From: Bifidobacterium pseudolongum subsp. pseudolongum DSM 20099
Lineage (GTDB): Bacteria > Actinomycetota > Actinomycetes > Actinomycetales > Bifidobacteriaceae
Assembly (NCBI RefSeq): GCF_000771225.1
Contig: NZ_JDTZ01000005.1
Location: 248,001 to 312,000, forward strand
Length of the DNA: 64,000 bases
Reading direction: 5' to 3'
Every line of letters starts with the position of its first letter. Within the stretch, counting starts at the first letter, position 1. Under the pieces are notes generated by a model. It had not been told where the DNA came from and searched no databases. It saw nothing but the letters and a program-made list of their open reading frames with translations. Positions 5,087-55,850 of this stretch are shown in pieces. A program made the translations under genes and the position numbers.

Positions 5087-6097
5087 ATGAGAGCACATAC
5101 CCAAGCCGGCGAGCTCATGCGCGCCGCACAACAGCAGCGGCGGTGCGCGTTCGCCACCGACCAGTCCACGTATGCGGCGATGACGCGGCGCACTGCCGCC
5201 GGCGAATACGTCTCGCCGTACCAAGGGCTCTATGCGAACCGCACGCATTGGCAGACACTCACGGAGTGCGAGCGGTCGGCGTACATGGTGCGCGCGCTGC
5301 ACTGCAAAAAGCCGCACTGGGTGTTCACGGGGTACTCCGCGCTTGATGTGCAGGGAATCACGCATTCACGCTCTTCGCATGACGGCGCCGTGTGGATCGC
5401 AGACCACCAGCGCAACGCACACAAGCACAACTCGCCGCGCACGCCGTTGCGCAGAATCCATCTGCCGAGTGACGTGGGCACGCGGATCATCGACGGCATT
5501 CCCGTCACCGCCGGCGCGGTGACCGTGGCCGTCAGCATCGCGCATCTGCCGTTCATGCATGCGCTGCCGCTTGTGGACGACGCCCTGCGCAAAGGCGCCA
5601 CTGTAGAACAGCTTGAGGAATGCTGCCGGCAGTTGCGTGTGCTCACTCCGGCGCTGCGCACACTGCTGCATTGCGGCAATCCGAAGAGCGAGAGCGGGGG
5701 AGAGTCGATCGCCCGCGCGGCGATACGACTGCTCGGGTTCGCCGAGCCGCAGCTGCAGGTGGAGTTCCCCGACCTGCGCAATTCCGGGCATGTGATCAGG
5801 GTCGATATGCTGTGGCGGCTGCCGGATGGGCGCATGATCGTTCTGGAATTCGACGGCGTGCAGAAATACCTCGACCCGACGATGACCAGGCATCGCGATG
5901 TGCGCATTCTTGTGCAGACACAGGGGGAGCGGGATGAGTCGATACGCCGATCGGGTATGACGACAATTGTGCACTGCTTCTACGAAGATGTGGTGAATCT
6001 CCGTGTCTTCGATCGGTTGCTGCGCAACGCGGGAGTGCCGTGGGTAGGTGTGCCCAATGAGTTGCAAGGTGAGCTGCGCATGGCCCTGCAGGCGTAG
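5087..6097 (+). CDS. AbiEi-like / PD-(D/E)XK nuclease-fold (DUF559-type) protein
   Basis: The function is not established. The N-terminal part (about residues 5-75) resembles the winged-helix region of AbiEi-type antitoxins, with an Arg-rich helix then a short 'G.YVSPYQGLYAN' turn. The C-terminal part looks like a Vsr/DUF559 PD-(D/E)XK fold: a Glu in GGESIARAAIRLLGF, an Asp in IRVDMLW, and VLEFDGVQKY, followed by a strand that ends in the conserved VVNLR region. Related proteins are common orphans in bifidobacteria. No toxin or methylase gene is adjacent. The start is fixed by the leaderless-type -10 at 5074-5079. Immediately downstream lies the repeat array at 6197-6373. Confidence 0.6.
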   Translation: MRAHTQAGELMRAAQQQRRCAFATDQSTYAAMTRRTAAGEYVSPYQGLYANRTHWQTLTECERSAYMVRALHCKKPHWVFTGYSALDVQGITHSRSSHDGAVWIADHQRNAHKHNSPRTPLRRIHLPSDVGTRIIDGIPVTAGAVTVAVSIAHLPFMHALPLVDDALRKGATVEQLEECCRQLRVLTPALRTLLHCGNPKSESGGESIARAAIRLLGFAEPQLQVEFPDLRNSGHVIRVDMLWRLPDGRMIVLEFDGVQKYLDPTMTRHRDVRILVQTQGERDESIRRSGMTTIVHCFYEDVVNLRVFDRLLRNAGVPWVGVPNELQGELRMALQA

Positions 6098-6196: not shown

Positions 6197-6373
6197 TTGC
6201 GTGCGAATTGTACGCAGAGAACAAGAGCCTGCGTACAATTCGCACGCAATCAGGTCTTGTAGCGCAAGAATTTTACGCAGATGACTCTAGACCGCGTACA
6301 ATTCGTACGATAATCCTTATGCAAGCGCAAGAATTTTACGCAACCTCCCATTTTCTGCGTACAATTCGCGCGC
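6197..6373. repeat. Array of six alternating 17-bp palindrome-like units, 31/32-bp spacing
   Basis: Units start at 6199, 6231, 6262, 6294, 6325 and 6357, spaced 32, 31, 32, 31 and 32 bp. Orientation alternates: units 2, 4 and 6 read GCGTACAATTCGCACGC, GCGTACAATTCGTACGA and GCGTACAATTCGCGCGC. Units 1, 3 and 5 are the same consensus on the other strand; units 3 and 5 are identical, GCGCAAGAATTTTACGC. The overall period is 63 bp. Units 1 and 2 together form a perfect 21-bp inverted repeat (6197-6217 with 6229-6249) around an 11-nt loop. The array resembles a REP/BIME element or a multi-operator region and lies between a gene end and a terminator. Confidence 0.85.
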
Positions 6374-15453: not shown

Positions 15454-17031
15454 CTATTCGCTGATGCGCTGGCGCAGCTGCAGCGTCAGCTCGGTGACGT
15501 ATGTGTAGATTTGCGGGTTGTCTTTCATGCCTTCCGAGATCGTCTTGCAGTTGTGCATGACCGTGGTATGGTCGCGCCCGCCGAACACCTGGCCGATGTT
15601 CACGAGGCTCATGCTCGTCAGGTCGCGCGTCAGGTACATGGCGATCTGGCGTGCGATCGTCACGTTCTTGGTGCGGGTGGGGCCCACGAGGTCGTCGAAC
15701 GTGAGGTGGAAATACTTCGCCACACGGCCGATGATGTCGGTCGGCTTGAGCTCGATGTCAGTCGAGAAGAAGTCCTGCAGCGTCTGCTCGGCGAGGATGC
15801 GCGTGACCGGCTGGTTGTTGAGCGAGGCGAGCGCCGTCACACGGTTCAGCGCGCCTTCGAGCTCGCGGATGTTGTCGGTGAACCGCTCGGCGATCAGGTC
15901 GAGCACGTCGTTGGGCACATACGTGCCGTTCGTGGAGACGAGCATGCGCAGAATCGCGATGCGCGTCTCGAGGTCCGGCGGCTTGACGTCGACGGTCAGG
16001 CCCTGCTCGAAGCGCGAGATGAGTCGTGCTTCGAAGCCCTTGAGGTTCTTCGGTGGTACGTCGGACGCGATGACGATGCGCTTGTTGTTCTGGTAGAGCG
16101 AGTTGAACGTGTGGAAGAACTGCTCGAGCGTCGACTCCTTGTCTCCCAGGAACTGGATGTCGTCGATGAGCAGCACGTCGATCTCGCGGTATTTGCGGTT
16201 GAACTCGTTGATGCGGCTTTCCCCGCTCGCCTTGTCGGCGCGCAGCGAGTCGATGAACTCGTTGGTGAACTCCTCGCTCGTCACATAGCGCACGCGCGTG
16301 CCGGGCTGCTTGAGCAGCGCGTAGTTGCCGATCGCGTTGAGCAGATGGGTCTTGCCCAGGCCCGATCCGCCGTAGATACACAAGGGGTTGAAGTCCTGGC
16401 CCGAGCCTTCCGCCACGGCGAGCGCCACGGTGCGCGCGAAGCGGTTCGAATCGCCGGGCACGAAGGTGTCGAACGTGTCGTTGCGGTTGAGGTGCGTCTC
16501 CGGGTCGAGTGACGGCTTGCGCTGGCGGTCCTTCATCGGCACCTGCGGGAACGAGCCGGTGGATGCGGGCATGTCGAAGTTCGTGCCGGGCATGATGTCT
16601 TCGAAGGTCTGTACCACGGCCTCGTCGTAATGCGTGGCGGGCTTGGCCGGGGCGGCGGACCCGCGCGGCGCCGCTTCGGCCGCGGCCGGTTTCGCACGGC
16701 TCGGCGCGCGTTCGGCCTCGACCTGCGCCCCGGGCGGCGTGGCGCGCGTGGAGGACTGCAGGATCTTGAACGCGGGGAACAGTTCGATGCCGCCGTTGGC
16801 CACCTTGAGCGCCTGCAGCAGCACGGAGTTGAGGTCGGTCTGCAGCATGCGCTGGGTTTCGTTGTTCTCCACGGCCAAAATGATCGTGGTGCCGTAGATC
16901 GCCTCGGGCAGCACGCCTTCGAACCACCCCTTCTGCCGGGCGGACAGTGTCGCGTTGCCGCGTAGAAGGGTAAGCGCGTTCGACCAGATCAGGGCTGATT
17001 GGGTGCCCGGATCGAGATTGTCTCCGCTCAT
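15454..17031 (-). CDS. dnaA: Chromosomal replication initiator DnaA
   Basis: An AAA+ initiator that binds DnaA boxes and opens oriC. It has 525 residues: domain I (1-90), a long proline/alanine-rich linker (95-175), then domain III with Walker A GGSGLGKT at 221-228 and Walker B VLLIDDIQFLGD. Domain IV carries the DnaA signature FGGRDHTTVMHNC. GGAGA lies 7 nt before the ATG. DnaA boxes on both flanks suggest autoregulation. It is transcribed leftward, divergent from rpmH. Confidence 0.98.
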   Translation of the reverse strand: MSGDNLDPGTQSALIWSNALTLLRGNATLSARQKGWFEGVLPEAIYGTTIILAVENNETQRMLQTDLNSVLLQALKVANGGIELFPAFKILQSSTRATPPGAQVEAERAPSRAKPAAAEAAPRGSAAPAKPATHYDEAVVQTFEDIMPGTNFDMPASTGSFPQVPMKDRQRKPSLDPETHLNRNDTFDTFVPGDSNRFARTVALAVAEGSGQDFNPLCIYGGSGLGKTHLLNAIGNYALLKQPGTRVRYVTSEEFTNEFIDSLRADKASGESRINEFNRKYREIDVLLIDDIQFLGDKESTLEQFFHTFNSLYQNNKRIVIASDVPPKNLKGFEARLISRFEQGLTVDVKPPDLETRIAILRMLVSTNGTYVPNDVLDLIAERFTDNIRELEGALNRVTALASLNNQPVTRILAEQTLQDFFSTDIELKPTDIIGRVAKYFHLTFDDLVGPTRTKNVTIARQIAMYLTRDLTSMSLVNIGQVFGGRDHTTVMHNCKTISEGMKDNPQIYTYVTELTLQLRQRISE

Positions 17032-47519: not shown

Positions 47520-47675
47520 AAACCAACAGTTCGTCATGGTAATTCATGATGGGCGAATGTAGAAGTTTGTTGCCGCGTCGATGTCGACGGCTGCAGATGG
47601 AAACGCCATAACAAATAAGTAATCCCCTCACAACGGATCGTTCGGCACGTACCTGCCGATGAAAGGATGAACAAA

Positions 47676-51720: not shown

Positions 51721-54708
51721 ATGGATGATCGCATCATAGATCCATCTGCTCTTTCGCGCGAACCCCACGTGGAACCAGAGGATGCCAAGGAAACCCAGGA
51801 GGTGAAAGCGCAGCAGGCTCTGCTGAACGACGTCGATCCGTCGCTCACCGACGCCGACCAGGTGGCGCAGGCGCTCAATGTAGACCCGCGCACCGGCCTG
51901 AGCTCCGAAGAAGCCAAGCGCCGACTCGACAAGTTCGGCCCCAATGAGCTGGCCAGCGCACCGCCGGTCCCCAAGTGGAAGAAGTTCCTGCAGCAGTTCC
52001 AGGACCCGCTCGTCTACCTGCTGCTCGCCGCCACCGCCATCTCGCTTGTGGCGTGGATCATCGAAAAGGTGAACGCGGCGCCGGGCGCCGAAGGCGAGGC
52101 GCTGCCGTTCGACTCCATCGTGATCGTGCTGATCCTGATCGTCAACGCCGTGCTGGGCTATATGCAGGAAGCGAAGGCGGAAGAGGCCGTCAACGCGCTT
52201 TCCGAAATGACCGCACCCACGTCCAACGTGCTGCGCAACGGCCGTGTGGAACGCATCAACACGACCGACATCGTGCCCGGTGACATCCTGGTGCTTGGCG
52301 AAGGCGACACCGTGCCGGCCGACGGCCGACTGCTCGCCGCGGCGAGCCTGCGCATCGCCGAGGCGTCGCTCACCGGCGAATCGGTGCCGGTGAGCAAGAA
52401 GCCCGCCACGCTCGACAGCGCGAAGGCGCTCGGCGACCGCGCGAACATGGTGTTCAACGGCACGTCCGTGACGCAGGGCACCGGCCGCGCCATCGTGACC
52501 GGCACCGGCATGAACACGCAGGTGGGCAAGATCGCCGACCTGCTCCAGTCCACCGAAGACGAGGCCACGCCGCTGCAGAAGGAGATGAACCACGTCTCCA
52601 AGATCCTGGGCATCGCCGTGTGCATCATCGCCGTGGTCGTGCTGCTCGCGCTCGCGGTCCTCGAAGGCTTCCACAGCGTGCACGACGTGATTGATTCGCT
52701 GCTGCTCGCCGTGTCGCTCGCCGTCGCGGCCGTGCCTGAAGGCCTCGCCGCGATCCTGACCGTGGTGCTCGCGCTCGGCGTGCAGCGCATGGCCGCGCAC
52801 CACGCGATCGTCAAGAAGCTGCACTCGGTGGAGACGCTGGGCTCCGCTTCGGTGATCTGCTCTGACAAGACCGGTACGCTCACGCGCAACGAGATGACCG
52901 TCGAGCGCGTGGTCGTGCCGTCGGGCGAAGTCGAACTGACCGGCACCGGCTATGCGCCGGAAGGTGACATGGTCTCCATCGACGGCTCCGCGGTCCCCGA
53001 GAACATCGCGAACGAAGTCCTCGCCACGCTCGGCGCGGGCACACTCGCGAACGACGGCGAACTGCGCGAGGGCGAGAAGCCCGGCACCTGGGAGATCGTG
53101 GGCGATCCGACCGAGGTCTCGCTCGTCGTGGCCGCCCGCAAGACGCACGCGGACAAGAAGTTCGCGCACTTCGACCGCGTGGCCGAAATCCCGTTCACGT
53201 CCGAACGCAAGCGCATGTCCGTCATCGCGCGCAACGCGACCGACGCTGGCAAGCTCACCGTCTTCGCGAAGGGCGCGCCGGACGTGCTGCTGAGCTACTG
53301 CGACCGCATCTACGTGAACGGCGCGATCCGCAAGCTCACCGAAGGCGACCGCCAGGACATCCTCGACACCGTCGAGCGCCTGTCGCGTGAGGCGTACCGT
53401 ACGCTCGGGGAGGCGTTCCGCCCGCTCGAGACCGATTCGCTCGCACAGATTCCGGGCATCCGCACGAACTCCGCCGGTGAGATCTCCGACATCTCCGAAC
53501 AGGCCGAGGCGATCGAACAGCACCTTATCTGGAACGGCATGGTCGGCATCATCGACCCGCCGCGCACCGAAGTGCGCGACGCGGTCGCCGAAGCGCACCG
53601 CGCGGGCATCCGCACGGTCATGATCACCGGCGACCACCCGCTCACCGCCGCGCGCATCGCCTCCGACCTCGGCATCATCGCCAAGGACGGCAAGGCGCTC
53701 ACCGGCGACGAACTCGACACGATGGATGAGGCGCAACTCGACAAGGCGACCTCCGAAGTCTCCGTGTATGCGCGTGTGGCGCCCGAGCACAAGCTCAAGA
53801 TCGTCGAATCGCTGCAGCGCCAAGGCAACATCGCGGCCATGACTGGCGACGGCGTCAACGACGCCCCGGCCGTCAAGTCCGCGGACATCGGTGTGGCTAT
53901 GGGCATCACCGGTACCGAGGTGACGAAGCAGTCGGCGAAGATGATCCTGGCCGACGACAACTTCTCCACCATCGTGGCCGCCGTGCGCGAAGGCCGCGGC
54001 ATCTTCGACAACATCCGCAAGTTCCTGCGCTACCTGCTCAGCTCGAACGTGGGCGAGGTCTTCACTGTGTTCTTCGGCGTCGTGCTCGCAGGCTGGCTCG
54101 GCATCAAGAACCCGGAGTCCGTGGGTGTGACCGTACCGCTGCTCGCCACGCAGCTGCTGTGGATCAACCTGCTCACCGACGCTGCCCCGGCGCTCGCGAT
54201 GGGCGTCGACCCGATGACCGAAGACGTGATGAACCGCAAGCCGCGCAAGCTCACCGACCGTGTGATCGACGGCGCGATGTGGGGAGACATCATCTACATC
54301 GGCATCATCATGGCGATCGTGACGCTCATCGGCATGGACATGCACCTGACGGGTGGCTTGTTCACCGATCGCTCCGTGGACGCGATGGGCCATGACGCGC
54401 AGATGGTGGAGGCCCGCACGATGGGCTTCACGATCCTCGTGTTCGCCCAGCTGTTCAACGCGATCGCCTCGCGCAGCCACCTGCAGAGCGCCTTCGTGGG
54501 TCTGTTCTCAAACAAGTGGCTGTGGGGTGCGATTGGCCTGTCGATTGTGCTGCAGCTGTTCGTGATCTACGTGCCGTTCCTCAACACCGCGTTCGGCACC
54601 ACGCCGCTGCCGCCGATGGCATGGCTCGAGTGCATCGGCCTGGCGTTCTTCGTGCTCGTCGCCTCGGAGGTCCGCAAGGTCTTCCTGCGCATGCGTGCGA
54701 AGAAGTGA
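51721..54708 (+). CDS. Cation-transporting P-type ATPase (P2A Ca2+ type)
   Basis: Pumps a divalent cation, most likely Ca2+, out of the cell. The 995 residues are full length. Actuator TGES is in EASLTGESVPV, phosphorylation Asp382 in CSDKTGTLT, and the hinge GDGVNDAPAV is intact. TM4 has the Ca-site motif VAAVPEGLAA and TM6 LLWINLLTDAAPALAMG, both as in SERCA/PMR1-type pumps rather than Na,K or H+ ATPases. It is monocistronic, with a terminator at 54730-54766. The 253 bp upstream hold AT-rich stretches near 51535 and 51590 but no promoter I can fix. Confidence 0.92.
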   Translation: MDDRIIDPSALSREPHVEPEDAKETQEVKAQQALLNDVDPSLTDADQVAQALNVDPRTGLSSEEAKRRLDKFGPNELASAPPVPKWKKFLQQFQDPLVYLLLAATAISLVAWIIEKVNAAPGAEGEALPFDSIVIVLILIVNAVLGYMQEAKAEEAVNALSEMTAPTSNVLRNGRVERINTTDIVPGDILVLGEGDTVPADGRLLAAASLRIAEASLTGESVPVSKKPATLDSAKALGDRANMVFNGTSVTQGTGRAIVTGTGMNTQVGKIADLLQSTEDEATPLQKEMNHVSKILGIAVCIIAVVVLLALAVLEGFHSVHDVIDSLLLAVSLAVAAVPEGLAAILTVVLALGVQRMAAHHAIVKKLHSVETLGSASVICSDKTGTLTRNEMTVERVVVPSGEVELTGTGYAPEGDMVSIDGSAVPENIANEVLATLGAGTLANDGELREGEKPGTWEIVGDPTEVSLVVAARKTHADKKFAHFDRVAEIPFTSERKRMSVIARNATDAGKLTVFAKGAPDVLLSYCDRIYVNGAIRKLTEGDRQDILDTVERLSREAYRTLGEAFRPLETDSLAQIPGIRTNSAGEISDISEQAEAIEQHLIWNGMVGIIDPPRTEVRDAVAEAHRAGIRTVMITGDHPLTAARIASDLGIIAKDGKALTGDELDTMDEAQLDKATSEVSVYARVAPEHKLKIVESLQRQGNIAAMTGDGVNDAPAVKSADIGVAMGITGTEVTKQSAKMILADDNFSTIVAAVREGRGIFDNIRKFLRYLLSSNVGEVFTVFFGVVLAGWLGIKNPESVGVTVPLLATQLLWINLLTDAAPALAMGVDPMTEDVMNRKPRKLTDRVIDGAMWGDIIYIGIIMAIVTLIGMDMHLTGGLFTDRSVDAMGHDAQMVEARTMGFTILVFAQLFNAIASRSHLQSAFVGLFSNKWLWGAIGLSIVLQLFVIYVPFLNTAFGTTPLPPMAWLECIGLAFFVLVASEVRKVFLRMRAKK

Positions 54709-54729
54709 TTCAGTCACACTGAATGACAG

Positions 54730-54766
54730 TGGGGTTCGGTTCAGCGTGAATCGGACCCCATTTTTT
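54730..54766 (+). terminator. Terminator of the P-type ATPase gene
   Basis: A 14-bp stem TGGGGTTCGGTTCA / TGAATCGGACCCCA (two G-U pairs), loop GCG, then TTTTTT. It is the clearest intrinsic terminator in the window. Confidence 0.9.
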
Positions 54767-54803
54767 GTGCCCGCAACAGAGAAGCCGCCACCATTTGAGG
54801 ATT

Positions 54804-54894
54804 TTCGCCGTTTTCGTCGCCGTTTTCGCTGTTATCGTCATCTTTCCAGCTAAAAAGTGACGATAACAGCGAAAACGGCGACGAAAACGGCGAA
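54804..54894. repeat. Perfect 37-bp inverted repeat with 17-nt loop
   Basis: The left arm 54804-54840 (begins TTCGCCGTTTTCGTCGCCG) is the exact reverse complement of 54858-54894. GGA/TCC beyond a 2-nt bulge extends pairing. Each arm contains a short internal repeat of GTTTTCG. It lies after the ATPase terminator and before the convergent esterase gene's stop. It is not a normal terminator. Confidence 0.9.
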
Positions 54895-54946
54895 TCCAAA
54901 GAGGTGCCGGCGGTGAGGGGTGCCGTTCGTGGATGAGCAGTGCCGC

Positions 54947-55717
54947 CTACATCATGCCGGAGGCGATGTTGTGGTCGAGGAGCCACTGGCGCAGGTCGGC
55001 GAACTCGTCGAGGCTCACCGAATGGTCGAGGCCGCGGTAGGCGTGCGCGCTGAGCCACGTGTGCTCTTCGAGCCATGCCAAGGTTTCATTCACCAAGAAC
55101 CGGGGGACCACGGTGTCGCCCGTGCCGTATCCGTAGAAGACGGGGATGTCGAGTGCGGCGAGACGCTCGTCGGCCGGGTGCGTGCCCGGCACAATGCCCG
55201 GCGCCACGAAACCGGAGAGGCAGATCGAGGCACGGTACCGTTCGGGATGCACGCGCAACAGTTGTATGGCCAACAATCCGCCCTGAGAGAATCCGATCGG
55301 CACCACGTCGCGTTCTGTTGGCACATTGTCCGCGACCCATGTGTCAATCGCCCGCGCGGCGGCATAGGCGTCGTAATCCAGGTCCTCACCGCCCGGCACG
55401 GCGTCGTGCAGCCACGAATACGCGCCCGGCTGCGCGAAGAATCCGCCGTTGGACGGCTCCTGCAACGTGATCGGCGCGCGCAGCGACACGAAGTCGTTGT
55501 ATGGCGCCACATATTGCATCATGCCGGCCAGATCGTCCTCGTTCGACCCCCAACCGTGCAGGCATACAAACAGCGGCCGGTTCGGTTGCGCCGTGGTATC
55601 CCCGCGTGACATACGCGTCCGCGTGACTTCGAGCGGTTCGCCGAACCTGCCCGGCACGACGGACGAAGGGCGGCCCACCAATGGTTCCGGTTGCATTGCC
55701 TGTGCATCGTTGTTCAT
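54947..55717 (-). CDS. Carboxylesterase/phospholipase-type alpha/beta hydrolase
   Basis: An abhydrolase_2 family serine hydrolase. Oxyanion-region [17 protein letters not shown], nucleophile Ser in GFSQGGLLA, the acid in [10 protein letters not shown] and the His in RGLDHSVSL make a complete triad. It has 256 residues. No signal peptide is visible, so it is cytosolic. The ATG at 55717 is 6 nt from TATGGT on this strand and GGAGG falls too close to it, so a leaderless start is possible. The substrate is unknown. Confidence 0.85.
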
Positions 55718-55723
55718 GCCTCC

Positions 55724-55729
55724 ACCATA
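55724..55729 (-). promoter_or_regulatory. -10 hexamer of a possible leaderless promoter
   Basis: TATGGT on the minus strand ends 6 nt before the esterase ATG. Confidence 0.4.
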
Positions 55730-55850
55730 CACGCGCGCGGGGCGCCGCACACCCCATGCGCGCACGCTCGTGCCGCCCTGTGGCTACACTGGAACCGAAC
55801 TGTTGTCGTTGCCGGGCCTCACGGGCGCCGGTGCTAGGAGATGCTTGCCG

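Follow-up and report, generated by a model that had tools for sequence, protein, structure and literature searches.

The perfect 37-bp palindrome in the window of Bifidobacterium pseudolongum DNA (the whole 64-kb stretch that was analysed) is a member of a dispersed intergenic family, each element of which carries four phased 12-bp half-sites. We propose that these palindromes are operator-like candidate binding sites of a linked, solitary AbiEi-like protein and that their perfection is maintained by template switching; we give this reading a probability of roughly 0.58. The AbiEi-like protein would contact half-sites in both orientations, as AbiEi does at its own promoter repeats, and the palindromes would act as AbiEi-type operators of this protein. 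A single template-switch event would account both for the perfection of the window copy and for the inversion of its centre.

Structure and Position of the Palindrome

The two arms were found to be complementary at 37/37 positions, with a 17-bp centre between them (Table 1), and the initial annotation was correct in describing a perfect 37-bp inverted repeat. A wider stem comprises 42 nt at 95% complementarity. When spacers of up to 40 bp were scanned, this was the longest perfect inverted repeat of the whole window; the longest arms measured 13, 10, and 11 when the window was resampled three times under a first-order Markov model. The RNA folding of the region gave z = -12.7, and 0 of 200 shuffles were equally good. 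The palindrome occupies the convergent gap between a P-type ATPase gene and an esterase gene. The initial annotation had also held that the true terminator of the upstream gene is separate and that the palindrome lies outside any terminator. Both points were upheld for terminators of the usual kind, as terminator calling flagged only the plus-strand hairpin that follows the ATPase gene, and no T-run was present outside either arm of the palindrome. The Rfam scan of the palindrome returned only sub-gathering matches, mostly to generic hairpins. Elsewhere in the window, at 47615-47674 (+), Rfam identified an msiK RNA with 63 bits.

Table 1. Positions of the palindrome, its half-sites, the neighbouring features and the AbiEi-like genes. 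Coordinates are those of the window unless a contig (C) or stretch (L) is named.
Feature	Position	Strand	Basis
Left arm, 37 bp	54804..54840	+	inverted-repeat comparison
Right arm, 37 bp, exact reverse complement of the left arm	54858..54894	-	inverted-repeat comparison
Asymmetric centre, 17 bp; inverted relative to orthologs in G058 and G073	54841..54857	.	ortholog comparison
Outer half-site, consensus TTTYGCYGTTWT	54803..54814	+	position derived from sequence and family spacing
Inner half-site, 21 bp from the + outer half-site	54824..54835	+	family spacing
Inverted inner half-site; start 39 bp from that of the + inner half-site	54863..54874	-	
Outer half-site, inverted	54884..54895	-	
Separate terminator-like hairpin with T-run, upstream ATPase gene	54728..54762	+	terminator calling
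P-type cation ATPase, upstream neighbour	51721..54708	+	
Abhydrolase_2 esterase, convergent neighbour; start codon uncertain	54947..55765	-	
Window paralog, 34% identity to the 344-aa AbiEi-like protein	5087..6097	+	
Different array 3' of the window paralog: 3 palindromes, GAATTNTACGCA half-sites, 25/38-bp alternation, 63-bp period	6199..6373	.	
344-aa gene with both flanking palindromes	C19:152847-154182		
Sites S10, S11; orthologs in L035, L093	L049 4848-4944, 6088-6184		

A Dispersed and Old Family of Palindromes

The arms recur elsewhere, both in the same genome and, as orthologs, in sister genomes. In the window's own genome (G000, 1.90 Mb), the DNA search gave 20 matches, and pattern and covariance-model searches resolved 13 palindromes. 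The covariance model (R1), which was built on 24 copies (alignment A2), was run against 112 Bifidobacterium genomes and matched 7 of them. There were 13 copies in G000, 13 and 12 in two B. pseudolongum genomes (G058 and G073, respectively), one in G042, and many in G006, which represents another species; the single weak matches in G083 and G031 were judged by eye to be unrelated hairpins. A stricter exact pattern matched four of 189 genomes of the family Bifidobacteriaceae, all in Bifidobacterium. Another pattern search, of named genomes, matched two records of B. pseudolongum subsp. globosum, LMG 11569 and 2093B. Phage and plasmid records contained no match to the element. The single exact pattern match in IMG/VR (L125) is AT-rich, lacks a comparable hairpin, and was taken as chance. 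The literature searched, mostly outside subscription papers, contained no description of such repeats in Bifidobacterium.

All of the aligned copies (24/24) fit a single gap-free frame of 97 bp. It consists of two 12-bp half-sites (TTTYGCYGTTWT) 21 bp apart, the centre, with the consensus TCACTTTTTNGCTGGATTNATGA when its edges are included, and a second, inverted pair of half-sites. The same half-site occurs in G006, where it is combined with a slightly different spacer and forms strict arrays (F+21 F+40 R+21 R+20, period 102 bp), with up to about five tandem palindromes in the 13 stretches examined (L078-L090).

The flanks of the copies in G000, G058, and G073 align as orthologous regions, and we tabulated the 13 sites that are present in at least two of these genomes. 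Judged by this orthology, the palindrome family predates the split of the three genomes, and the recent origin that the initial annotation had suggested for the window copy is therefore disfavoured; most sites are common to all three genomes, whose flanks are mostly ~86-96% identical. An assembly artefact is very unlikely because orthologous palindromes exist in other assemblies. G042 is without the element at the window site, where 143 bp separate the two gene matches versus 246 bp in G000. Another site has an intact palindrome in G058, of which a deletion has left a remnant in G000. As a separate observation, a stretch of ~105-130 bp beside site S5 (L045 4919-5024) matches places in G042 and G073, several of them near contig starts, and it is probably another repeat or an insertion-sequence remnant.

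An AbiEi-Like Gene Accompanied by Palindromes

A 344-aa ORF (C19:153041-154072 in G000) is bracketed by two members of the family: S10 is located 98 bp ahead of it and S11 ~12 bp behind it. The neighbouring genes code for proteins of 484 aa and 735 aa, neither of which resembles AbiEii by eye. The 344-aa protein matched the PADLOC model of AbiEi weakly (E = 0.0045), its G006 relative and the window paralog gave still weaker matches, and the G058 copy and a protein of Collinsella aerofaciens gave none to this model. A five-sequence alignment (A3) compared with a Tsukamurella protein, which is a clear AbiEi (6.6e-16), reached an hhalign probability of 98.6 over 242 columns. Searches of Pfam and NCBIfam returned no significant match for the AbiEi-like proteins, and PDB sequence searches returned nothing meaningful. 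The C-terminus (VDFLW...ALEYDG) shows a D...ExD pattern, which we take to be that of DUF559 / PD-(D/E)XK proteins; the Collinsella protein matched DUF559 at E = 0.022, below the cut-off. The predicted structure of the window paralog had a pLDDT of 35 and was not usable.

The reading of the palindromes as AbiEi sites is supported by their position beside related genes in four settings: S10 and S11, G006, the window paralog, and Collinsella. The G006 homolog (54% identity) is frameshifted, stands in a different gene neighbourhood, and has arrays on both sides; the persistence of these arrays despite the frameshift counts against the AbiEi-site reading. An array of a different type begins ~100 bp after the window paralog (Table 1), and this type recurs at C19:161035-161197 (L142 2035-2197) and in G058 (L029 775-937). 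In Collinsella aerofaciens, the homolog (28-30% identity) is flanked by palindromes that alternate at 41 and 39/40 bp, four of them to one side and two to the other, and two more three-palindrome arrays lie within ~8 kb of the gene. In NZ_OY725717.1 406237-421290 (L139), four arrays with a total of 12 palindromes occur within 15 kb of the AbiEi-like gene, versus a single stray half-site in four other 50-kb samples of the same record. The Collinsella record has 14 places similar to one of its palindromes, and no other plasmid record has any. No array accompanies the gene of the Tsukamurella homolog, which is the clearest AbiEi; this result speaks against a strict rule. No relative of the 344-aa protein was found among those encoded in IMG/VR, and in the literature searched, mostly without subscription papers, no AbiEi/DUF559 genes with palindrome arrays were described.

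According to the accessible text of the report on Streptococcus agalactiae, AbiEi represses its own promoter, where it binds a pair of 11-bp inverted repeats; the site is TGTTGCTTTTA-N27-TAAAAGCAACA, with a separation of 27 bp and thus 38 bp from centre to centre (PMC3985639). The inverted half-sites of the palindromes are spaced at 39 bp in the B. pseudolongum group, 40 bp in G006, 41 bp in Collinsella, and 38 bp in the array of the window paralog, where this value is the R to F distance and F to R is 25. We favour the operator reading because this range of 38-41 bp agrees with the 38 bp of the known site. Inverted half-sites ~38 bp apart with an adjacent AbiEi-family gene, as in an AbiEi operator, were found at the palindromes that flank the 344-aa gene; the window copy lies ~149 kb from it, and the distances of other sites reach hundreds of kilobases. 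Autoregulation of the 344-aa gene is likely on this analogy, and its combination with a genome-wide or cis-spreading role of the chromosomal sites would be the most likely arrangement.

The distribution of the sites is uneven. G000 has three close pairs of palindromes on C19 (51.0/52.9, 152.9/154.1, and 195.1/197.6 kb; gaps <2.7 kb), and 0.24 were expected. Together, the contig with the gene and the adjoining contig make up 22% of the genome and carry 7 of the 11 other sites (p = 0.003), a value that is too optimistic, as the choice of contigs was post hoc, the close pairs are included, and the adjacency is inferred from the order in G058. The window contains the C-terminal domain of dnaA at 15538-15741 (-); the replication origin is probably near dnaA, ~39 kb from the window palindrome. 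Clustering around the 344-aa gene fits the counts, which are made dependent by the close pairs, as well as clustering around the origin.

The palindromes could instead be the ends of a transposable element with the 344-aa gene inside, the solitary copies being non-autonomous, as in the MITE or REPIN scheme but with a new enzyme. There is overlap with our reading, since such an enzyme would bind the sites too. The gene and its flanking palindromes occur with a similar layout in different neighbourhoods in B. pseudolongum and G006, the copies differ between species, and the D...ExD pattern and the DUF559 match of the Collinsella protein would suit an enzyme. Against this, most sites are orthologous and old, and the paralog prediction offers no catalytic fold. 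No precise empty site or target-site duplication was found, the empty sites compared being too diverged or deletions. We consider such a mobile cassette rather unlikely. What the initial annotation had called a miniature element did prove to be a dispersed family, but one for which neither a Y1_Tnp transposase nor a target-site duplication was found.

Joint Change of the Arms and Inversion of the Centre

The palindromes as candidate AbiEi-type sites have arms that change together. In alignment A2, 90.4% of cells are paired, and 15 of the 40 pairs change on both sides; the double-changed cells number 80, as compared to 39.8 +/- 4.5 in shuffles. The 9-bp spacers of G000, G058, and G073 pair at 76-83% within a copy versus 61-67% between arms of different copies, in a test from which shortened copies drop out and in which one G000 row is an off-register duplicate. 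The G006 spacers showed no such excess (44% within versus 41% between copies). Across the 13 sites, both sides had changed in 73 of 1258 pair comparisons, and 40 of these are paired in both genomes; by our own arithmetic, ~23 would be expected with independent change of the two sides.

Orthologs carry the centre in opposite orientations at 5 of the 13 sites (the window site, S6, S10, S11, and S12). At the window site, the G000 centre agrees with the consensus at 10 of 21 positions in the forward and 19 in the reverse orientation, and the ortholog centres agree at 18 forward and 9 reverse and at 19 forward and 9 reverse. The arms of this copy pair at 36 and 33 positions in the orthologs. Within one genome, the S10 and S11 centres are alike when one of them is inverted, with 15, 14, and 17 matches over 17 positions (G000, G058, and G073, respectively). 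The S10 centres of different genomes, compared without inversion, agree at 6 to 11. The neighbouring copies may therefore exchange sequence, as if converting each other.

Template switching between the arms of an inverted repeat is reported, in the accessible text, to yield arm homogenisation and spacer inversion (PMC8604942, PMC8794818), and its products have been recorded at quasipalindromes of Escherichia coli (PMC7202029). In the aligned copies, the joint change of the arms and the flipped centres match what template switching during replication predicts. Of the origins offered in the initial annotation, active maintenance by correction is thus supported by both the co-varying arms and the inverted centre. 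Through paired arm changes and flipped centres at known sites, the orthologous copies record how template switching has acted naturally in a bacterium.

Template switching between the arms could also be all that keeps an old, functionless family of interspersed repeats perfect. Both of its recorded products are present (PMC8604942, PMC7202029), and G000 has lost one site to a deletion that left a remnant. However, the element is conserved above its flanks. The mean ungapped identity between orthologs was 84% for the element versus 62% for the 55-bp flanks, and of the 24 comparisons, made at 10 sites, 22 showed the element to be better conserved; the test left out S4, S7, and S9, which are truncated in at least one genome, and some bias remains in it as the sites were found via the element. 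The constraint is, moreover, specific to position: variable columns made up 26/320 in the motif versus 40/180 in the spacer (p = 1.5e-5), with motif positions 1, 4, 7, and 11 classed apart and position 12 kept as motif though variable. The spacing is rigid over species, and the arrays adjoin related genes. An inert palindrome is, in our view, unlikely.

A Site in DNA or in RNA

Constraint of this kind raises the question of whether DNA or RNA is under selection. On the presumed transcript strand, taken as that of the flanking genes, we counted 17 G.U versus 26 A.C in 22 copies at 8 tandem sites. The lack of preference for G.U argues mildly against selection at the RNA level; the initial annotation had held that transcribed RNA would be an RNase III substrate. 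The sequence comparisons point to a DNA-level site as more likely than an RNA hairpin because the constraint is position-specific, the orientation of the centre is free, and G.U pairs are not in excess. According to a custom codon-usage gene caller, 4 of the 13 sites of G000 are in convergent gaps, 8 in tandem gaps, and 1 in a divergent gap; of the gaps in the local background, 19 are convergent, 69 are tandem, and 19 are divergent, so the palindromes show no clear preference. A transcribed, REP/ERIC-like hairpin that terminates or stabilises the flanking mRNAs would suit the very stable fold and the intergenic position with a divergent gap at only 1/13 sites, but it is very unlikely given the absence of a T-run or terminator call, the G.U counts, the flips of the centre relative to the genes, the G006 spacers that pair no better within than between copies, and a gap context not clearly different from the background.

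Comparison with Known Systems

The S. agalactiae operator likewise has inverted half-sites, 38 bp from centre to centre, beside the gene of the AbiEi protein that binds them (PMC3985639, accessible text). It comprises two half-sites at one promoter, whereas here there are two to four half-sites per element, arrays, and many chromosomal copies. The abiE type IV toxin-antitoxin system also differs in that no AbiEii gene was recognised by eye beside the 344-aa gene and in the C-terminal extension of the protein described here.

Template-switch-corrected quasipalindromes share arm homogenisation and spacer inversion with the family, as far as the accessible text describes them (PMC8604942, PMC8794818). 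This is a likeness of process and not of element, as here the palindromes form a dispersed bacterial intergenic family with arms of ~37-40 bp. BIMEs share the regular spacing and alternating orientation (PMC2817692, in part), seen here in the G006 arrays (F F R R at 21/40/21/20 bp), but their unit differs by eye in sequence and size from these elements.

REPIN/REP sequences with their RAYT partner resemble the family as intergenic, dispersed inverted doublets with compensatory arm changes, tandem clusters, and a cognate gene flanked by repeats (PMC3116915, PMC3733652, accessible parts). The family is REP/REPIN-like in layout, yet the features that define REP fail. A search for Y1_Tnp (RAYT) was positive in 0 of 5 genomes, with the control search positive in 5 of 14 known genomes. 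The REP/REPIN unit is 20-40 bp long with the end tag GTAG or CGTC, whereas the present element has 97 bp and, by eye, CGTC inside the arms. The linked protein is AbiEi-like instead of a RAYT, and the best reading of its pairing with the palindromes is a REP/RAYT-like system with a protein unrelated to RAYT.

We tentatively suggest, with the odds somewhat against it, that the Actinomycetota contain an undescribed class of two-component elements, in which solitary AbiEi-like proteins with a nuclease-like C-terminus would be paired with their own helically phased palindromic arrays that flank the gene, are spread over the chromosome, and are maintained by template switching. If true, bacterial palindrome families would not be solely a matter of RAYT, and a widespread antitoxin-type DNA-binding family would own dispersed sites, which would give a concrete protein-site pair in gut bacteria that are harmless. 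Such a class would form a counterpart to the RAYT/REP system, independent of it.
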